Assembly: GCA_030427805.1 (NCBI GenBank)
Contig: JAUICP010000002.1
Coordinates: 186,001-250,000 of the forward strand
Length of the DNA: 64,000 bases
DNA from: Bdellovibrionia bacterium
Lineage (GTDB): Bacteria; Bdellovibrionota; Bdellovibrionia; Bdellovibrionales; JAGQZY01
Direction of reading: 5' to 3'
In this document: piece after piece, positions 38,508-49,023 of the stretch
How positions within the stretch are numbered: position 1 is the stretch's first letter
Layout: each line of letters opens with the position of its first letter
Translations under genes and position numbers: made by a program
Notes under the pieces: generated by a model
Database searches by the model: none
Told to the model about the DNA's origin: nothing
What the model saw: only the letters and a program-made list of their open reading frames with translations

Positions 38508-39401
38508 GTGAGCTCACAAAAAGCTAAACCATCGGAAACCTTTAATCCCGAAGCCTGGGAATTGGTACCCGAATTTAATTTCGAAGACATTACTTACCAC
38601 CGTGGCAAAAACCAAAAAACCGTGCGAATTGCCTTCAATCGCCCCGAAGTCAGAAATGCCTTTAGACCACAAACAGTGGACGAACTTTACAAGGCCATGC
38701 ATCACGCCGCAGAGTCTTCAGATATAGGTACTGTTATTTTAACAGGAAATGGTCCTTCTCCTAAAGATGGTGGCTGGGCTTTTTGCTCAGGTGGAGACCA
38801 GAGAGTCCGAGGAAAAGATGGCTATCAGTATGGTGACAAATCTAAGCTCGGTCGACTTCACATTTTAGAAGTTCAAAGATTGATTCGTTTTATGCCTAAG
38901 CCGGTCATTTGTGTTGTCCCTGGGTGGGCCGTCGGTGGCGGACATTCTCTTCACGTCGTTTGTGACCTTACTTTAGCAAGTAAACAACATGCTGTTTTCA
39001 AACAAACGGATGCGGATGTGGCAAGTTTCGATGGGGGCTATGGTTCGGCCTACCTCGCAAAAATGGTGGGACAAAAGCGCGCCAGAGAAATCTTCTTTTT
39101 AGGGGCCGATTATACAGCTGATGAGGCCATGCAAATGGGAATGGTTAACAAATCGATCGACCACGATCAGCTCGAAGTCGTTGCTCTCGAATGGTGTGAA
39201 ACAATAAATAAAAAGAGTCCAACGGCAATCAAAATGCTTAAATACGCTTTCAATCTCACAGATGACGGCATGGTTGGTCAGCAATTGTTTGCAGGTGAAG
39301 CCACCCGGCTTGCCTATGGAACCGCTGAAGCCCAAGAGGGAAGGGATGCGTTTTTAGAAAAGCGACCCCAAGATTACAGTCGCTTTCCATGGATATTTTA
39401 A
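38508..39401 (+). CDS. menB: 1,4-dihydroxy-2-naphthoyl-CoA synthase
   Basis: 297 aa from GTG 38508 (GGAG, 7 nt). Crotonase fold with MenB signatures: RPEVRNAFRPQTVDELY, FCSGGDQRVRGKDGY, GWAVGGGHSLHVVCDL, DVASFDGGYGS and the terminal QDYSRFPW. It performs the Dieckmann-type ring closure of o-succinylbenzoyl-CoA in menaquinone synthesis, in the cytoplasm. No other men genes lie in the window. Menaquinone use agrees with the SQR that feeds a quinone. The stop overlaps the convergent lipoprotein gene by 4 nt. Confidence 0.95.
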   Translation: MSSQKAKPSETFNPEAWELVPEFNFEDITYHRGKNQKTVRIAFNRPEVRNAFRPQTVDELYKAMHHAAESSDIGTVILTGNGPSPKDGGWAFCSGGDQRVRGKDGYQYGDKSKLGRLHILEVQRLIRFMPKPVICVVPGWAVGGGHSLHVVCDLTLASKQHAVFKQTDADVASFDGGYGSAYLAKMVGQKRAREIFFLGADYTADEAMQMGMVNKSIDHDQLEVVALEWCETINKKSPTAIKMLKYAFNLTDDGMVGQQLFAGEATRLAYGTAEAQEGRDAFLEKRPQDYSRFPWIF

Positions 39402-41830
39402 TTTAATTTTCCTGACTTTTTAATTTGCTGGATCGATTTAATTTTCAGGTAACTTCCATTTAAGTTATAGGCATCCAAGGTTTTGACCTTTTCGTTGTTG
39501 CGACTCTTAGTCAGTAAAAATTCGAAGGCTTGCTGAGCACTCCACTTATAGGTAGTCACTTGGGTTTTATTGTGAATATCAACATAGGAGTCGATTGCAT
39601 AAAAACCGGCATCTACTTCCTCTTCGAAAAACTCAAAAGTTCTTTGATCGTATTTTCTCAGTTTTGAGTAGACCTTCCCTTCGGGACTCTGAAGATAGTG
39701 GCTCACAAAATTGGACATCCCTATTGTCAATAACTCCAGATCCGCAAGAATTTGTTTGAGACCTGATAATTCTTCTCCCCCAAGAGAGTCTCTTATCAGC
39801 TGAGAATTTGAATTTTCAATAAGGGCTGCCTCGTTTAACAAATTGGCGAGGGCAGAAACCAATATGGTATTTGTTTTGGTTTCTGCGAACTGATCACCAA
39901 ATTCATTTTGATCAATGATTGCACCCATAGCTGACTGTTTTTCTGGTCTCGGATCTTCATCATTGAATGCGACAAAATCAAAGTTCTGATTAGCCACATA
40001 GAGGCCCATCCCTTTGTAGCTCAAGTTTTTAACCAATAGCACACAATTCGCAAACACCATGGCGTAAATGGCGTCTTTCGGAAAGAGCTTTTGATTGAGA
40101 GTTTCAGACGAAAAGTCCTTTAAGATGTCTTGTACGTAGACGCCACCTAGCCCCTCATCAAAAAGACTTCGATTCCAGTCCTGAAAGAACGGCATAAATG
40201 ACGTTAAAACTCTTATGAGCCGACCATGGGAACGCCAAAAAACAGAAGAACTCTCACTCGACTCCAAGTAGGTTGGCTCTTTGATCAATGGTAAGTCGAG
40301 AGCGTATTCGATCCTCTTAGAACTCTTGACAAAACTGTAAGAAGATTCAATGTAGGATCCATCGTAGGTTTTTACTCCAGATAAATCGAGAGTAAACTCT
40401 ATAAAACTCAATAGGAGCTTGTCTGCCTTATCAACACTTAACTTGTCATCAGTTACCAAAAAGAGGTGTATCAGTTCGAACAACAATGCCTTTACCTCTA
40501 AATTCGAAGGCATTAATTCAGACGATTCACTCTCTGAAAGGAATGAATCTTTTATTTTCATCTTACCTGGAAACTGTTCTTTAAAGCGGAAGAAGCTCTT
40601 TTCATTCAGCTCGCTACCTACTATCAGATTTTTAACAAAACTAACAGGATCACGGGTTACTTGATCAACTTGGTTATAGCTCTTGCGAATTCCAGCAAGA
40701 ATTTTCTCAGAAAGTAGAGAATCAATATCCTTTAAGAAGTCTAAAGTTTCTCCTTTAACCACATCGATTAACACTTCGGATGCTGCACGGTCGACTTGAT
40801 CCCGAATTTTCAATACACCATAACCCTCAATTTCCGGAATTATGGCAAGTTCCCGAACAAAATACCTAACCGGTCCGGCACAACTTTTAGAGGGAATGTA
40901 ACAGTATAGTTCTCCCTCATTTCGATTTCTTAAAAACTCATAGAGATCCCTCGATTGACTCGAAAATACCTGTTCCCGGTCTTCAGGTGATGTTATTAAC
41001 CAAGACCAAACTATCAATTCAAAGGCTGTCGAGGCATCGTGGACCTGAGAGATTGAGTAGGCAATATAGCGAGCTTCTTCGAGGTCCTGTAGAGTCTCAC
41101 TGGAAAGATCTATTTCATACTCCCCTATAACTCGATCTAAAATGTTCAGAGAATTCGCTAAACTTTTAGAGTTCTCAAGTTGAGTTAAAAGGCGACTGAG
41201 ATTTTCTATCTCAGCCCTCGTATCTCCGCTTTTCAATTCTTTTTCTACTTCAACAACAATGGGCTCATAAACATTGAAAGCCCTCAACTGCTTAGGCACT
41301 AAATCAAAATAATCAAAAACATAGGCTTTTGTTTGACTCAGTTTAAACCGTGACAAACTAGGCCATCGGTAATTTCCAGAAAGACGATTGAGTTTACTTG
41401 GCACTATTTGTGAGGCACTATTTAAAGTTTCTTTCACACCACCAATTTCAGTCTTAACATCATCGTAGGCAAAGCCTAAAAGAGCATCGACGTATTTACC
41501 ATTAGCAAGTTTCTCTTCTTCAAAGAAGTAGCCCAACGATAAAACCTGCTCGATCATGGCAAGAGTTTTTTCTTTCTCCACAGCATTGTTAGTAGAGTGG
41601 CTAATGTATAGGCGCAGCTTTAAGAACTTAAGAAGATCCGTGGTACTTAACTCTATATCTAATTGATCTAAGCTCTGTAAAGGGAAGGGTAACTCGGCAT
41701 TGTAGGCTAGCTTCTGCGAAAACTCACGATTGATAATAAGTTGCGGAATCGGCTCCGGTTGAATATCCTCAAGCTCTGGAGCACAATTGACGAATAACAA
41801 AGATGTCAGTAGCAGTAGTATTAATCTCAT
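39398..41830 (-). CDS. Large lipoprotein, paired with outer-membrane protein
   Basis: 810 aa; MRLILLLLTSLLFVNCAPE is a lipoprotein signal. The mature protein is helical and acidic without known motifs. It begins 7 nt downstream of the putative outer-membrane protein gene and is surely co-transcribed. Size and layout recall the giant lipoprotein genes at the left end, but I saw no clear sequence match to them. The ATG has AGGGG upstream. A complex with the barrel protein is plausible but inferred. Confidence 0.82.
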   Translation of the reverse strand: MRLILLLLTSLLFVNCAPELEDIQPEPIPQLIINREFSQKLAYNAELPFPLQSLDQLDIELSTTDLLKFLKLRLYISHSTNNAVEKEKTLAMIEQVLSLGYFFEEEKLANGKYVDALLGFAYDDVKTEIGGVKETLNSASQIVPSKLNRLSGNYRWPSLSRFKLSQTKAYVFDYFDLVPKQLRAFNVYEPIVVEVEKELKSGDTRAEIENLSRLLTQLENSKSLANSLNILDRVIGEYEIDLSSETLQDLEEARYIAYSISQVHDASTAFELIVWSWLITSPEDREQVFSSQSRDLYEFLRNRNEGELYCYIPSKSCAGPVRYFVRELAIIPEIEGYGVLKIRDQVDRAASEVLIDVVKGETLDFLKDIDSLLSEKILAGIRKSYNQVDQVTRDPVSFVKNLIVGSELNEKSFFRFKEQFPGKMKIKDSFLSESESSELMPSNLEVKALLFELIHLFLVTDDKLSVDKADKLLLSFIEFTLDLSGVKTYDGSYIESSYSFVKSSKRIEYALDLPLIKEPTYLESSESSSVFWRSHGRLIRVLTSFMPFFQDWNRSLFDEGLGGVYVQDILKDFSSETLNQKLFPKDAIYAMVFANCVLLVKNLSYKGMGLYVANQNFDFVAFNDEDPRPEKQSAMGAIIDQNEFGDQFAETKTNTILVSALANLLNEAALIENSNSQLIRDSLGGEELSGLKQILADLELLTIGMSNFVSHYLQSPEGKVYSKLRKYDQRTFEFFEEEVDAGFYAIDSYVDIHNKTQVTTYKWSAQQAFEFLLTKSRNNEKVKTLDAYNLNGSYLKIKSIQQIKKSGKLN

Positions 41831-41837
41831 GAATCCC

Positions 41838-43076
41838 CTAAAAATAAATCTGTAAAATCAATTCCTGTGTCAGTTGCCTATTAATGTTTGTTCCCCTAAA
41901 AATATCTGAAACCCTAAGCTCCAAAAACATGGGCAACAAACTCTTTGTTTCTAAATAGTAGTCAATTGTATTGAAGCTGATTCCGAACTTCATCATGTGT
42001 CGGCTCGACTCAGTATCGGCAGCCAAAAGGTCATATCGACTACCACGTTCACCACTGTAACTGTCTTGGGATCTGCCAATGTATTCGTAGCCAAATCCCC
42101 ATTCAAAAAATTTAAGAAACTTATGATGTATCGATGAAAACACACGTATAGTATCACCCAAATCTCGACTTAGATTTTCTTTTTGATGAACGTCAGGAAG
42201 CTCGTCCTCTTCATTGAGCGGCACTCTTGCGATTGTTTCATCGGGCAGAGTCAGTCGATAGGAGGCCCCAGTTCGAATAAAATAGCTAGGAATAACCTGA
42301 ACCGAAGCCAATAGTTCCTGTTCAACATAGGTTTCTCCAAATATTCCTAAATCCAAAATGTCATCGGGATCGTCCGCGGGGCCTGTGGGCAAGTTAATCG
42401 TCGTTGTCGAAAGATTGATGGTATCCTTCCCCCAGGGGAAGGCATAAAGTGCGGCAACTTGAATATCCCCCATGTAGGATTTATTTTGCGAACGAACTTC
42501 TTTGTAACCCCGTTCTCGCAAATAGGACTTAAACTCTCCAACAATATCTACATCGAGCTCTTTAAGGGCGCCATCGAGTTCAGCATTTACACCACCATAG
42601 ATTTCTTTAAGTTGGTTCACATTGCCTTCGACTCGATCCAAACGAACTCTATTTTTATAGCTTATGATTGGAATCCCGAGACCAATCGTTAGTGCGTCGG
42701 TGACACCGAAGGCTACTGTCGGCACCGAGTAACTCACCTCTGGCTTTAAATTAATGTCGATTCTTCCCAGATGAATATCATTGCCAATTCCAAAGTTCCC
42801 AAAGGAATTCAAGACATCGCGAAGCTCGGTAATTTCAGGGCGAATTCCACTGAGCCTTTCGTAATCAAAATTAATTCGTGAAAGTTGAGAGAGTGACTGA
42901 AGCTGGCCTTCGCTACTAAACTTTTGCTCTATTTGAGAGACCCAGCCCTGGCGCATCGAAACCATGCGACGCCCATCGGGAAGTACGTCAGGTGCATTAA
43001 ATCCGCTGGCGGCGCAAACGAATCCACTGAACAAAATAAAAGTTAGTTGCGGAATGAATGATCCTAAACCCTTCAA
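41838..43076 (-). CDS. Outer-membrane beta-barrel-like protein
   Basis: 412 aa from a TTG with GAGGGGA 5 nt upstream. Signal peptide about 25 residues (QLTFILFSGFVCAASG). The mature portion shows many amphipathic strands ending with aromatic pairs (IPIISYKNRVRL, TIGLG, INLSTTTINLPTG, YFIRTGASYRLTLPD) and finishes ELILQIYF, the C-terminal Phe signal of outer-membrane barrels. It looks like the phenol-degradation or fatty-acid transporter-type barrels, but the subfamily is not decided. First gene of the pair with the 810-aa lipoprotein. Confidence 0.78.
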   Translation of the reverse strand: MKGLGSFIPQLTFILFSGFVCAASGFNAPDVLPDGRRMVSMRQGWVSQIEQKFSSEGQLQSLSQLSRINFDYERLSGIRPEITELRDVLNSFGNFGIGNDIHLGRIDINLKPEVSYSVPTVAFGVTDALTIGLGIPIISYKNRVRLDRVEGNVNQLKEIYGGVNAELDGALKELDVDIVGEFKSYLRERGYKEVRSQNKSYMGDIQVAALYAFPWGKDTINLSTTTINLPTGPADDPDDILDLGIFGETYVEQELLASVQVIPSYFIRTGASYRLTLPDETIARVPLNEEDELPDVHQKENLSRDLGDTIRVFSSIHHKFLKFFEWGFGYEYIGRSQDSYSGERGSRYDLLAADTESSRHMMKFGISFNTIDYYLETKSLLPMFLELRVSDIFRGTNINRQLTQELILQIYF

Positions 43077-43303: not shown

Positions 43304-43328
43304 AAAAAAAAGACTCCCTGTGGGAGCC
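43304..43328 (-). terminator. Rho-independent terminator
   Basis: Arms GGCTCCC and GGGAGTC (one G-U) with loop ACA, then eight T on the minus strand. It lies 30 nt after the UDG-like gene stop. Confidence 0.85.
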
Positions 43329-43358
43329 TTTTTAATCAATCAAATTCCGAGTCTCAAT

Positions 43359-45884
43359 TTACTGAGCCAGTCTGTAAAAATTGGCTTCACAAGATCCTGC
43401 AGATGAACCAACCATCTCAAGACCGGGAACTTCTGTTCGAACTACTTCGAGAGCACTTTCTGCACTACGCTCTCGGAGACCCGCATAGAAAGCTCTTTCC
43501 CGACGCTCAACTTCTTGTCGGCGACGCTCAAAGTATTGGGCCACAGACTCTTCAGGAGAACGAAAACCCATCTCTTCATGTTCGGCTAAAACGCGTTCCC
43601 AACCTCTCTCTTCGCTTCTTGAGAACTCACCTTCAAACTTAGCAGCCCAATTGGGAGCTACGGCAGCAAAGGCTTTACCTTGATATTTACCACGACCAGA
43701 AATAACACGGTCTCCAGAAGTACCTTCCCAGACACGAGCAACAAAGGTCAGATGGGAACGTGGAATATCAGCTCGATCTCCAGAAATATTTCTGCGACGA
43801 TATCTTGAACCCAACTTAGATTTGAGCGCAGATCCACCTGACTTAATTCCCGAAGAAGCACTATTTCCTCTCTCGATCGTAACGATCTTAGGGCTTTTCA
43901 CTTCTAATTCGTCTAAAATTCGCTCAAGTTCTTTTGCTGCATACTCACCATCGGCTACAAAAACCTTTGGTCGCGTTGTCTCGAGAACCTTTTCAATTAC
44001 CTTTTCACGGTAAGTTCGAGTCGCATAAAGAGCATCGTTCCACTCAGCTTCAGAAGCCCCATCCATTCCCACTGGAAGAGTTTTAAGAACGAAGTACTTG
44101 TCATCAATACCTAAATCCCTAAATATTCCGTGTAAGTACTGACCTCTTTCGCCTGTTAAAGCTCGTGAAGTCATGATGTCATCCCAACCATGGGGATCGG
44201 CTAAAACAAATACTTCTGGGTCATCGAGAGTTCCACGGTAGTGACCGAAGTAACCAGTATCCCGATGGGTTTGCGAAAAAATCTCTCTTGTTTCTGTCGA
44301 GTCTTCACTGGCATCTGGAAGGTATCTTCTGAATACACGCTCAACATCAGCTGGAAGACCTTGATCAAATTCATACTTCCACTCATCGTAAAGAGGACGC
44401 CCTGTTCGCACCATCCAATTATTTGGAAGAGCGTCATGGCGGTCATCTTTTTTCATTCTATCGAGAATGCGCTTTAGTTCACTTTTACCATTTGATCCAA
44501 AAATATTTTTATCACGCTCTCCACCTATGATCACAGATTGATCAAATCTTACTGCCGAAGAAACTGGAGTTAGGCGGATGTCTGGCGTACCAAGGTCACC
44601 GTGTGAGAGTGGAACAGAGGCTCTTCCGTATTGATAGGGCTTTCCTCTTTCGAAGTTACTTTTTCCACCTTTTTCAGCACGTGGAGCTTTCCAACCTTTT
44701 CGAACCCAACTTTTTGCGTCCGCGACAAGTCCCTCATTTACGATTTTAGAAGGATCGCCACCATCGGTTTTCACGATCGACAGATATGTAGGATGTGGAG
44801 AATCGAGAAATAAAACATCAGGGGCGGCAAAGCTTCCACCCTTCCCGTCGGGAATTCGCATACCTTTAAGGCGTCGAGATTCTGCAGACTCCCAATTGAA
44901 TCCACCCAGCTGCTCTGCGCGCATAATTCCATTATTCATCGGTCCGCTGTAGTTGATCGCGACAAGATCTAAAGCATCTTTCCAGTGATCCTTAAGAAGT
45001 TGCTGAGCCAACTTAACATCTGAACTATTTTTCATGCTGAACTCTTTCCAGCGACCACGATGCATTTTATGGAGGACCGAATAGAGCGATTTTCCATCTT
45101 TAGTAAGAGGGATCGCAGCTTCGTTATTGCCACCAGCTCCGACCATTTCAAATTCTGGAACTAAGTAGCGACGAGCGTCTTCGTCAGAGATATAACCATC
45201 AATTTTACCGCCGATGTACTCGTAAAAACTACCACCGGCATCTTTTCCCGCTTGTCCGAGCATAAGAACCATTTTGAGTGAATCTTGGTTTCTCTTCATA
45301 ACCCAAGCGAGAAGCTTATTTCTAAACTCTGAGTAGGGGCTATCATGGGCGAGACTCCAAAGTCTGTTTTCTGTAACACTCAGGTTGGTAAAGAATTTTC
45401 TACCATCTTCTTTAACCTCAATAACAGGAGTACTGCGGCTGCCGTACTGACCAGAAATAGTATTCGTAAAAAGGTTCGTAAAAAAGATCTGCTCAAAAAC
45501 CCCGAAGTGTGAAGCCATGTCGTGAACACGACCACCGAATCCAGCAATACCGGGGCGGTTAGCGAACTCAGCAATGTGCGTGGCATCCTGACCAATAGCT
45601 AATATCTGGATACAGTTCTTGCACAAAAGGCCACGTATCGCCATGTTTCCCCAATCCGGTCGAAACTTTTGGCCGTCCTTATAACTGGGAGCAAGTACAT
45701 CAAGTAGTGTCGACCCGAGGGGAGTATTTGGATGACTGTTTAAAATTTCGATCAATTCTTTGATTTCGGGATCATTAACGTCAGGGATAGAGTCGATCGT
45801 CGTATAGATCTCTTGCGCAAAAGCAGAGACACTAAACAGGATCGCAATAACGATTAATTTTATGCGAAAAAGTAGGCTAGCCAT
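43359..45884 (-). CDS. Exported protein with two uracil-DNA-glycosylase-like modules
   Basis: 841 aa with a signal peptide (IVIAILFSVSAFA, cleavage near residue 23). Module 1: IGQD at 97-100 in LAIGQDATHIAE, then FGGRVHDMA, FFTNLFTNT (134-142), LMLGQAGKDA (207-216) and SPHPTY (362-367). These are in the order of UDG superfamily motifs (GQDP-type water-activating loop, Asn strand, LG strand, HPS-type loop). Module 2: VFVLADPHGWDD (558-569), LKTLPVG, KVFVADGEYAAKEL (640-652), PRSHLTF (708-714). It keeps the layout with altered residues. A glycosylase outside the cytoplasm would be unusual. Activity and DNA binding are inferred. AAGGA precedes the ATG and a terminator follows. Confidence 0.7.
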   Translation of the reverse strand: MASLLFRIKLIVIAILFSVSAFAQEIYTTIDSIPDVNDPEIKELIEILNSHPNTPLGSTLLDVLAPSYKDGQKFRPDWGNMAIRGLLCKNCIQILAIGQDATHIAEFANRPGIAGFGGRVHDMASHFGVFEQIFFTNLFTNTISGQYGSRSTPVIEVKEDGRKFFTNLSVTENRLWSLAHDSPYSEFRNKLLAWVMKRNQDSLKMVLMLGQAGKDAGGSFYEYIGGKIDGYISDEDARRYLVPEFEMVGAGGNNEAAIPLTKDGKSLYSVLHKMHRGRWKEFSMKNSSDVKLAQQLLKDHWKDALDLVAINYSGPMNNGIMRAEQLGGFNWESAESRRLKGMRIPDGKGGSFAAPDVLFLDSPHPTYLSIVKTDGGDPSKIVNEGLVADAKSWVRKGWKAPRAEKGGKSNFERGKPYQYGRASVPLSHGDLGTPDIRLTPVSSAVRFDQSVIIGGERDKNIFGSNGKSELKRILDRMKKDDRHDALPNNWMVRTGRPLYDEWKYEFDQGLPADVERVFRRYLPDASEDSTETREIFSQTHRDTGYFGHYRGTLDDPEVFVLADPHGWDDIMTSRALTGERGQYLHGIFRDLGIDDKYFVLKTLPVGMDGASEAEWNDALYATRTYREKVIEKVLETTRPKVFVADGEYAAKELERILDELEVKSPKIVTIERGNSASSGIKSGGSALKSKLGSRYRRRNISGDRADIPRSHLTFVARVWEGTSGDRVISGRGKYQGKAFAAVAPNWAAKFEGEFSRSEERGWERVLAEHEEMGFRSPEESVAQYFERRRQEVERRERAFYAGLRERSAESALEVVRTEVPGLEMVGSSAGSCEANFYRLAQ

Positions 45885-46692: not shown

Positions 46693-47304
46693 ATGCATGA
46701 AAGCTTACTTGATGAGGGGTTTGTTCATTTCGACCCCTCTTTTTTTTCGATTTACCTCCCCTATGCGACCCCTGAAAACGTAACTGGAGAGCAGCTTTAC
46801 ATAAACCACGCCTGCTATGTGAAAAAAGAGGTTTATGAAGCGCTCGTCGGTGTTAACAAAGAACTTCAAAAGAAAGACTACCGCCTACACATCTGGGACG
46901 CCTACCGACCATTTCATATTCAAGAAAAGCTCTGGGCCTTCTGCCCCGATGATCGCTATATCGCAAGGCCTGTGCGGAAAGATGGCAAAATGGTCAGTGG
47001 CTCTAACCACAGCCGAGGCAAAGCCGTCGACCTCACCATTGTCGATGGTAACTTAAACTATCTCTCCATGCCTTCAGGATTTGATGATCTTTCGGAAAAA
47101 GCCTGGAGAACTCCCGAAAAGTGGTCTAACGAAATCCGAGAGAATATGGAACTTTTCGAGACTTTGATGATCAAAAATGGATTTAAGGCGAACCCCAATG
47201 AGTGGTGGCATTACGACTTTTTAGGAGAGGTACAAAAAGATCAGCTTTACGATGTTGAGCTACCAGATATCGATAACTCTACCCTTCCTCCCCATAAAGC
47301 TTGA
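46693..47304 (+). CDS. D-Ala-D-Ala dipeptidase (VanX/DdpX family)
   Basis: 203 aa, no signal peptide. The M15D signatures are HIWDAYRPFHIQEKLW, SNHSRGKAVDLTI (zinc His and Asp) and EWWHYDF (third zinc His). These enzymes cleave D-Ala-D-Ala, usually for cell-wall recycling in the cytoplasm or for glycopeptide resistance. Nothing nearby suggests resistance (no vanH/vanA), so use of peptidoglycan-derived dipeptide is the simpler reading. It follows a secreted protein gene by 2 nt and runs into the TrmB-like gene. Confidence 0.92.
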   Translation: MHESLLDEGFVHFDPSFFSIYLPYATPENVTGEQLYINHACYVKKEVYEALVGVNKELQKKDYRLHIWDAYRPFHIQEKLWAFCPDDRYIARPVRKDGKMVSGSNHSRGKAVDLTIVDGNLNYLSMPSGFDDLSEKAWRTPEKWSNEIRENMELFETLMIKNGFKANPNEWWHYDFLGEVQKDQLYDVELPDIDNSTLPPHKA

Positions 47305-47306
47305 AG

Positions 47307-47918
47307 ATGCCCCGTCAATTTAATCCAGACAAGATTCCAGTGCCTAAGGATGTACGTCCCTTCGAGCCTCCAGAGGGAAACATTGCACTTGAAATAGGTT
47401 GTGGTGTTGGTTATCACCCCGTTCAATTTGCTCTTGATAACCCCGGAACCTTTTTAATCGCCATCGAACGTACAAAAGAAAAATTTGAAAAATTCCAGAG
47501 AAGATATGAAAACCATGATTCACCAAAAAATCTCTATCCTGTATTCGGAGATGCCATTCCATGGATTCACCATAAACTTCCCGATCATTGCCTCGATCAG
47601 ATATTTATCCTCTACCCAAACCCCTACCCCAAATCAAAACATCAAAATCGAAATTTTTTAAACATGCCTTTCACTCAAGAACTCATTAAAAAACTTAAAA
47701 CGGGGGCTTCGATCGAACTCGCTACCAATTCAAAAGACTACGTAGAAGCCATCGAAGGAAATTTAAAAAGTTTAAATTCAATGGGATTAGAACTTAACGA
47801 AAAGACAGTCATTCCAAAAGATTTTAAATGGCGCACACATTTCGAAAAAAAGTATCTAGAGAGAAATGAGGAATGTATTAATCTTGTTTTTAAATATCAC
47901 AATCGTAGTCAAGACTAA
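47307..47918 (+). CDS. TrmB-like SAM methyltransferase
   Basis: 203 aa from ATG 47307, 2 nt after the dipeptidase stop. IALEIGCGVGYHPVQFA is motif I; AIERTKEKFEKFQRR follows and ILYPNPYPKSKHQNR lies where TrmB has FPDPWPKKRHHKRR. Overall design matches tRNA (guanine-46-N7) methyltransferase, but the normal Asp of the PDPWPK loop is Asn, and Trp is Tyr. It may be a divergent paralogue with a different RNA target, or less active. A TTG at 47301 is an alternative start. The 3' end overlaps the convergent VWA gene by 29 nt. Confidence 0.78.
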   Translation: MPRQFNPDKIPVPKDVRPFEPPEGNIALEIGCGVGYHPVQFALDNPGTFLIAIERTKEKFEKFQRRYENHDSPKNLYPVFGDAIPWIHHKLPDHCLDQIFILYPNPYPKSKHQNRNFLNMPFTQELIKKLKTGASIELATNSKDYVEAIEGNLKSLNSMGLELNEKTVIPKDFKWRTHFEKKYLERNEECINLVFKYHNRSQD

Positions 47919-49023
47919 CACGAGTATTGGGCGGAAGTGGACGATCAAATCGAATCACTAAGTCTTGAAAATCATAAGTGATTTGAACTGCTGGATTGGG
48001 TTCAGGAATGAACCGAATATCAACCTTGTCATTGCGAGGACGACAGTCGAGCCGAACGGCAGTAACTCGATCTTTAATATTAGAGCCGATATCACCCATT
48101 TGCTGACCGTAATCAGAGGCACAAATATTTCCAATTTCACCCGCCGTAAGCTGGGCAAACTGCTTATAAAGATACCCGTAATGGCCCTTAACTCCGCCAT
48201 TCTGGTTGTCTTGAGTGTACTTACAAGAACTGTCTCCGGGCTTTGTGATAATCGCATGGACCGCTAAACTCTTGCTTGGGTAATAGGTATTGAGTCGATC
48301 AATAAAGGTTTGCGGCTGATCATAATTTTCCAGTGGATATCCTGGGATATCTCCCATAATAGCTCCTCTAGAATATCGAGTTCGACTTCTCTCATCTTCA
48401 TCAGCAAGAATGACTATTGCTAAATGAGCATCATCTCTAAAGAAATTCTCTTCATTTCTATCAAGAGCCATATTGGCGGCGTAAATCCCTCTTTCATCTG
48501 GAGACGGACAACTCGCAGTCTTAAATCCCGAGTTTTCACAGGCTACAGTTTCATCTCGCTTTACCGTATTTCGAAACTTAGAAATAACATTCGATGAAGA
48601 GGGCGATAAAACCTTCTCGCCACTACCAAACTCTAAAAAACGACCGTCTTGATAGGCTCCATAATTATTGGCTGCCTTGGGACCATTATTAGGAGACACC
48701 GATACATCTGTAGTGATTACAGCGATTCGATAATCGAGATCTTTAATTTTGTCGAAGAAGTTTGGAAAGCGATTCGCCATCGCCGCCTGCTCAGTAGACA
48801 TTGAACCTGAGTTGTCGGTCACAAATAGAATATCAACGGTCGCGGGCCCAATAATAATATCGTCAGAAAATGCCTTGAAACAGTCATCTCCAACACACTG
48901 ATTACAATCAATTCCTTCTTGTTCACAGCGAGGAGCTTCCGAAAATTTAACATCGGAACAGGCAATTAGAAACATCACCGTCGTAAAGCTTAAAATAAAC
49001 CTATATGTTTGTTTCAACGTCAT
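47890..49023 (-). CDS. VWA-domain lipoprotein
   Basis: 377 aa. A lipoprotein signal ends FLIAC. A von Willebrand A domain starts with VDILFVTDNSGSMS, the complete MIDAS motif DxSxS, and later has ILADEDERSR and a Cys-rich insertion (CENSGFKTASC). The C-terminus is beta-rich and may be a separate module (VRLDCRPRNDKVDIRF to DYDCDI). VWA domains bind protein partners through Mg; surface display is expected. AGGAG lies 5 nt before the ATG. Function in adhesion or assembly is inferred. Confidence 0.87.
   Translation of the reverse strand: MTLKQTYRFILSFTTVMFLIACSDVKFSEAPRCEQEGIDCNQCVGDDCFKAFSDDIIIGPATVDILFVTDNSGSMSTEQAAMANRFPNFFDKIKDLDYRIAVITTDVSVSPNNGPKAANNYGAYQDGRFLEFGSGEKVLSPSSSNVISKFRNTVKRDETVACENSGFKTASCPSPDERGIYAANMALDRNEENFFRDDAHLAIVILADEDERSRTRYSRGAIMGDIPGYPLENYDQPQTFIDRLNTYYPSKSLAVHAIITKPGDSSCKYTQDNQNGGVKGHYGYLYKQFAQLTAGEIGNICASDYGQQMGDIGSNIKDRVTAVRLDCRPRNDKVDIRFIPEPNPAVQITYDFQDLVIRFDRPLPPNTRVSLDYDCDI

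Follow-up and report, generated by a model that had tools for sequence, protein, structure and literature searches.

A predicted exported protein with two uracil-DNA-glycosylase-like modules, and its exported gene neighbours, in the Bdellovibrionota

The window analysed here, a stretch of 64,000 nucleotides from a Bdellovibrionia bacterium, carries a gene for a putative exported protein built of two modules that resemble uracil-DNA glycosylases (UDG); its features are listed in table 1. Such a protein had been proposed in an earlier sequence-only reading, and the open reading frame lies at the coordinates given there. A copy is present in a sister species (L002, a Bdellovibrionia bacterium MAG), with identities of 97% for the protein and 92% for the DNA. 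The two differ by 176.5 synonymous and 31.5 non-synonymous changes (dN/dS 0.04), so the open reading frame is a real gene under purifying selection. Since a terminator-like hairpin lies directly 3' of the gene, co-transcription with the next gene is improbable. An operon that would include the downstream genes at 41838-43076 and 39398-41830 was discounted, because the gap of 283 bp holds this hairpin and neither gene recurs beside members of the UDG-like family. Close by in the window are a Peptidase_M15 gene (46693-47304; D-Ala-D-Ala dipeptidase family, Pfam E 3.6e-32) and a lipoprotein gene (47890-49023) whose product, by the look of its sequence, resembles a von Willebrand factor A domain (VDILFVTDNSGSM).

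Table 1. Features of the UDG-like gene and its product, by position in the window
Feature	Position	Strand	Remarks
Gene for the predicted exported two-module UDG-like protein	43359..45884	(-)	841 aa, ATG start
Predicted Sec signal peptide, residues 1-23 (MASLLFRIKLIVIAILFSVSAFA, followed by Q)	45816..45884	(-)	Predicted cleavage between AFA and Q; from sequence, heuristic
N-terminal UDG module, residues 66-470	44475..45689	(-)	Catalytic residues conserved; profile A8 matches BdiUng
Motif 1 GQD, residues 98-100	45585..45593	(-)	Water-activating Asp position; D/E100 in 69/70 aligned relatives
TNLFTNT, residues 136-142	45459..45479	(-)	Uracil-binding Asn position N137; N137 in 70/70
LMLGQAGKDA, residues 207-216	45237..45266	(-)	Core strand and Gly turn; G210 in 71/71
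HPTY, residues 364-367	44784..44795	(-)	Motif B-like His-Pro; H364 in 70/71, P365 in 71/71
C-terminal UDG module, residues 538-762	43599..44273	(-)	Degenerate active site; profile A9 and Foldseek match BdiUng
LADPHGWDD, residues 561-569	44178..44204	(-)	Altered motif 1 keeping D563; D563 in 71/71
KTLP, residues 601-604	44073..44084	(-)	Thr in place of uracil-binding Asn; T602 in all long forms
IPRSHL, residues 707-712	43749..43766	(-)	Family-specific, follows the position of the lost His-Pro loop; corresponds to IAKDLP..WM of BdiUng
Intrinsic-terminator-like hairpin directly 3' of the gene	43307..43333 (minus: 43333-43307)	(-)	12 pairs, T tract; consensus match only

Relatives of the protein were found by protein search in 35 of 144 genomes of the class, and a profile search of the phylum identified the UDG-like family in 80 of 369 Bdellovibrionota genomes, representing 51 of 182 genera. 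The family comprises long forms of about 790-910 aa, the kind to which the window protein belongs, and short forms, mostly of 640-750 aa. A search of genome contigs with the window protein, which tests weakly beyond the phylum, had the sister species as its sole match, and no homologue was found among viral contigs, phages and plasmids. The gene is also absent from the 24 listed genomes of one genus (g7, probably Bdellovibrio), so it is not required for predation in general. At its C-terminus (43359-43395) the window protein has a cysteine and, shortly after it, an aromatic residue or leucine, as do about one third of the long forms (for instance, SCEANFYRLAQ and SCQALFQ). This SCxxxF-like motif was counted in 14 of 42 long forms and in 74 of 1,088 background ORFs, and is therefore enriched, not general.

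Taken alone, the window protein gives sub-threshold matches, with residues 569-659 to Pfam UDG (PF03167; E 0.062, 13.8 bits against a gathering score of 24.3) and with residues 70-150 to BdiUng in the PDB (E 0.024). Among its relatives, all 11 short forms (best E 1.2e-7) and 8 of 19 long forms match Pfam UDG, and relatives such as L039 (30.1 bits) exceed the gathering score. When searched against the PDB, the long-form profile (A1) finds Blr0248/BdiUng with E 3e-10 and the short-form profile (A2) with E 3e-26, both modules of the latter aligning to the single BdiUng chain. Separate profiles of the N-module (A8; 5gn2, E 7.4e-20) and of the C-module (A9; E 2.3e-12) lead to the same protein, which is the sole significant PDB match of the whole-family profiles and of each module profile. 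A low-confidence AF2 model of the C-module (pLDDT 44) has BdiUng 5gn2 as its top Foldseek match (E 1e-5), and family 4 UDG, SMUG1 and UdgX structures follow; because Foldseek scoring also uses amino-acid similarity, this match partly overlaps with the sequence evidence. The N-module model, made with one near-identical partner, reached a pLDDT of 29, and for this module the UDG fold, alpha/beta/alpha with a four-stranded parallel sheet, is assigned from sequence profiles only. Thus the profile searches, and for the C-module the fold search, return UDGs and not another superfamily; together with the homology between the modules described below, they bear out the two UDG-like modules of the sequence-only reading.

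The match to Blr0248 is significant for the family and the module profiles, and on this sequence evidence the protein is assigned to the UDG superfamily, specifically to the BdiUng branch. Motif 1 reads GQD[AG] in most long forms and GQEG in short forms, the Pro of the BdiUng-class GQDPA being absent. The window protein has GQDAT and HPTYLS, and not the GQDPY and HPSPLS of family 1 (Ung). The GE[AG]PG motif and Fe-S cysteines of family 4 were not found in it, the CKNC before motif 1 not being conserved, and neither the KRRIH loop nor the GEQPG of UdgX occurs as a string in its sequence.

The four motifs of the first set stand at the residues originally proposed for them, and the second, more altered set, which had been placed at residues 558-714, spans about 550-719. 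Among 71 aligned proteins, the N-module positions G98, Q99, D/E100, N137, N199, G210, H364 and P365 are conserved, no more than one or two proteins deviating at any of them, with mostly Asp in long forms and Glu in short forms at position 100. Family 1 UDG uses the Asp of motif 1 to activate water and the His of motif 2 to stabilise uracil as it leaves (PMC5387724); by analogy, D100 and H364 would play these roles. The C-module retains the catalytic Asp (D563) alone: Thr or Ser takes the place of the Asn (Thr in every long form, one of the two in almost every short form), and no His-Pro loop is left. As it keeps only the Asp, the C-module is probably a non-catalytic, degenerate partner. The earlier suggestion of activity on foreign DNA or of lost catalysis would thus be divided between the modules, the catalytic residues of motif 1, the Asn strand and motif B being present in the N-module and lost from the C-module. 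Two relatives have an impaired N-module: in L047 (218-2521) it is damaged, motif 1 having changed from GQE to GPA with loss of the acid, and in L049 (6439-8118) its middle is missing.

The two modules are homologous to each other. Residues 549-733 of the window protein match residues 118-278, in the N-module, of a short-form relative by BLAST, and alignment of N-module with C-module profiles gives a probability of 99.3% (E 2e-20) for the short forms and 96.7% (E 3.5e-10) for a mixed set. In a tree of 71 N-modules and 71 C-modules the two groups separate completely, with support of 1.0, indicating that the duplication predates the radiation of the family. BdiUng is reportedly a dimer, and by analogy the fused modules may form a built-in dimer.

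The signal peptide recognised in the sequence-only reading is plain in the window protein, and by a heuristic most relatives have Sec-like or lipobox N-termini, 13 of them being called lipoproteins. In all, 84% of the UDG-like proteins were called exported, against 45% of neighbouring ORFs under the same lenient heuristic, and the negatives include some proteins truncated by contig ends. The family therefore mostly carries an export signal, from which we infer a location beyond the inner membrane. Two conventional UDGs encoded elsewhere in the genome, L053 (a family 1 Ung) and L052 (another UDG), have no export signal. DNA glycosylases are regarded as intracellular repair enzymes; here the sequence data support an exported two-module UDG-like protein.

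Clustering of the neighbourhoods of 75 relatives and annotation of the recurrent neighbours revealed three families with export signals: NADAR/gp30.3-like proteins, EEP nucleases (PF19580) and amidohydrolases (PF01979), of which 93%, 88% and 93%, respectively, were called exported by the lenient heuristic. The NADAR-like partner, a protein of about 220 aa with a predicted signal, matches Pfam NADAR and gp30.3 below the gathering score and has YbiA as its best match in the PDB. The amidohydrolase profile is nearest to MTA/SAH deaminase, atrazine chlorohydrolase, and guanine and 8-oxoguanine deaminases. Among the genes that recur beside the family, none was identified as a DarT-type toxin gene. 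At six loci (L102, L103, L104, L105, L106 and L109) a small, predicted exported protein of about 180 aa is encoded directly downstream of a short-form gene, with a gap of -15 to 28 bases and in several cases a lipoprotein gene after it; the one member scanned had no Pfam match.

The NADAR-like gene is found in 111 of 369 genomes, in 72 of the 80 that have the UDG-like gene versus 39 of the 289 others (Fisher odds ratio 58, p 2e-38), and by genus in 47 of 51 versus 12 of 131. The correction of these tests for phylogeny is partial, and the association holds separately in the families f3, f9 and f12 and in the remainder. Within the class, 32 co-occurrences were observed and 10.7 expected, whereas Peptidase_M15, a negative control equally patchy in the class, gave 10 observed and 11.4 expected (p 0.68); chance co-occurrence of patchy genes was rejected on the basis of this control. 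Of the 41 genomes with an amidohydrolase gene, 35 also have the UDG-like gene. EEP nucleases are so widespread (227 of 369 genomes) that little can be concluded from their co-occurrence by itself, and the informative part is the adjacency of a close subgroup.

Adjacency at 5 kb or less, for which chance predicts about 0.4% per genome, was counted by hand, clade copies not being independent: the UDG-like gene is this close to the NADAR-like gene in 10 of 72 genomes and to the amidohydrolase gene in 19 of 35. All six pairings of the four genes are seen as neighbours. The UDG-like, EEP and NADAR-like genes are consecutive at four loci (L098, L101, L112 and L121), and at six others (L163, L164, L165, L182, L183 and L184) the NADAR-like and EEP genes stand together as a pair, apart from the UDG-like gene. 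In the genome of the window, the gene of a predicted exported EEP nuclease adjoins that of a predicted exported amidohydrolase on the same strand (G000:C7:88641-92026; L171:6642-10027), and a predicted exported NADAR-like protein is encoded at G000:C3:495513-496196 (L151:6514-7197), where by eye the gene lies downstream of aspartokinase-like and decarboxylase-like ORFs of amino-acid biosynthesis. The four components thus occupy three separate loci, on C1 (the window), C3 and C7, and form no operon in this genome. The patchy distribution of the family and its absence from g7 indicate that the exported set is optional. The company of exported DNA-cutting and base-handling enzymes suggests an unrecognised extracellular base-processing system.

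The explanation that we favour, with a probability of roughly 0.5, is an exported BdiUng-like glycosylase with an active N-module and a degenerate C-module that works on foreign DNA together with exported partners. The fused pair would consist of a catalytically competent N-module and a C-module that is probably a DNA-binding or dimer-like partner. Its site of action would be the periplasm, the outer membrane or the surroundings of the cell. By cleaving the N-glycosidic bond of uracil, or of related bases that are oxidised or deaminated, the pair would generate abasic sites in foreign DNA; the EEP-family nuclease would cut DNA or abasic strands, the amidohydrolase, of the purine-deaminase kind, would process the bases set free, and the NADAR-like N-glycosidase would be a further member of this loose exported set. 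The likeliest source of substrate in this lineage would be prey or environmental DNA, and in relatives of Bdellovibrio secreted nucleases digest prey DNA, the nucleotides of which are reused (PMC7925074). As the substrate range of BdiUng-like enzymes is wider than that of Ung (PMC8307549), uracil, 5-hydroxymethyluracil and xanthine are plausible substrates. With the odds somewhat against it, we also propose that the pseudo-dimeric UDG, NADAR, EEP nuclease and deaminase constitute an undescribed extracytoplasmic base-excision set that dismantles foreign DNA. Its substrate would be damaged or modified foreign DNA; abasic sites may be where the exported EEP nuclease acts, and base excision would serve as a digestive or scavenging pathway.

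Alternatively, both modules could be catalytically dead, and the protein an exported scaffold that binds DNA or nucleotides, for example in DNA capture at the cell surface. The lack of Asn and His-Pro in the C-module, the predicted lipoproteins among the relatives, the Glu that short forms have at the Asp position of motif 1 and the missing acid in L047 would fit this scaffold, which we nevertheless consider unlikely, since the Gln, Asp/Glu, Asn and His-Pro of the N-module are near-invariant in 70 relatives and would be needless for pure binding. The partners could also be read as pointing to extracytoplasmic nucleobase salvage by an N-glycosidase whose substrates would be free nucleosides, nucleotides or some modified small molecule: relatives of the NADAR/YbiA-like protein act on riboflavin intermediates and ADP-ribosyl-guanine, and the amidohydrolase is close to guanine and MTA/SAH deaminases. 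Salvage is similarly doubtful, however, because the nearest solved relative is a DNA glycosylase and the EEP nuclease indicates nucleic acid.

An offensive or defensive enzyme, introducing abasic sites into base-modified DNA of prey, competitors or phages, seems very improbable. The phylum is predatory, anti-phage systems, predicted or known, include some with NADAR and UDG domains (PMC13092281), and one partner weakly matches NCBIfam NF053876, but the UDG-like protein has no match in PADLOC, for which reason membership of a defence system was rejected, nor in PHROG; the searches of phages, plasmids and viral contigs gave no homologue, and export is ill-suited to intracellular defence.

If the favoured explanation is correct, base excision also operates outside the cytoplasm, and N-glycosidases join a prey-digestion arsenal of predatory bacteria that to date lists nucleases. 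The roles of stand-alone NADAR proteins outside toxin-antitoxin operons have been described as unclear (PMC11125620), and the exported set offers a possible setting for them. Our searches of the literature turned up neither an exported UDG nor such an exported set.

Among known systems, the secreted nucleases of Bdellovibrio (Bd0934, Bd3507) are likewise exported nucleic-acid enzymes of the same phylum (PMC7925074, PMC3593177), but they are nucleases, and the papers searched mention no N-glycosidase in this group. The NADAR/YbiA/gp30.3 N-glycosidases resemble the partner gene product in Pfam and YbiA similarity, and the partner differs by its predicted export. Family 4 UDG and UdgX have the motif order and, as predicted, the fold in common with the family, with weak NCBIfam and PDB matches, whereas their GE[AG]PG motif, conserved Fe-S cysteines and KRRIH loop are absent from it. 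The likeness to BdiUng (Blr0248) of Bradyrhizobium diazoefficiens (PDB 5gn2, 5gn3, 5gnw and 5grk), a separate UDG class with a broad substrate range, extends to each module, which alone matches BdiUng best in the PDB. Shared features are the GQD/E motif 1, the NTF strand, the YR-K helix followed by the Gly strand, and the downstream I-x-x-x-DLP..WM. BdiUng itself is intracellular and consists of one module of 272 aa, whereas the UDG-like family, in which the second module is without the active-site Asn and His-Pro, is made up of two-module, predicted exported proteins of 650-900 aa.
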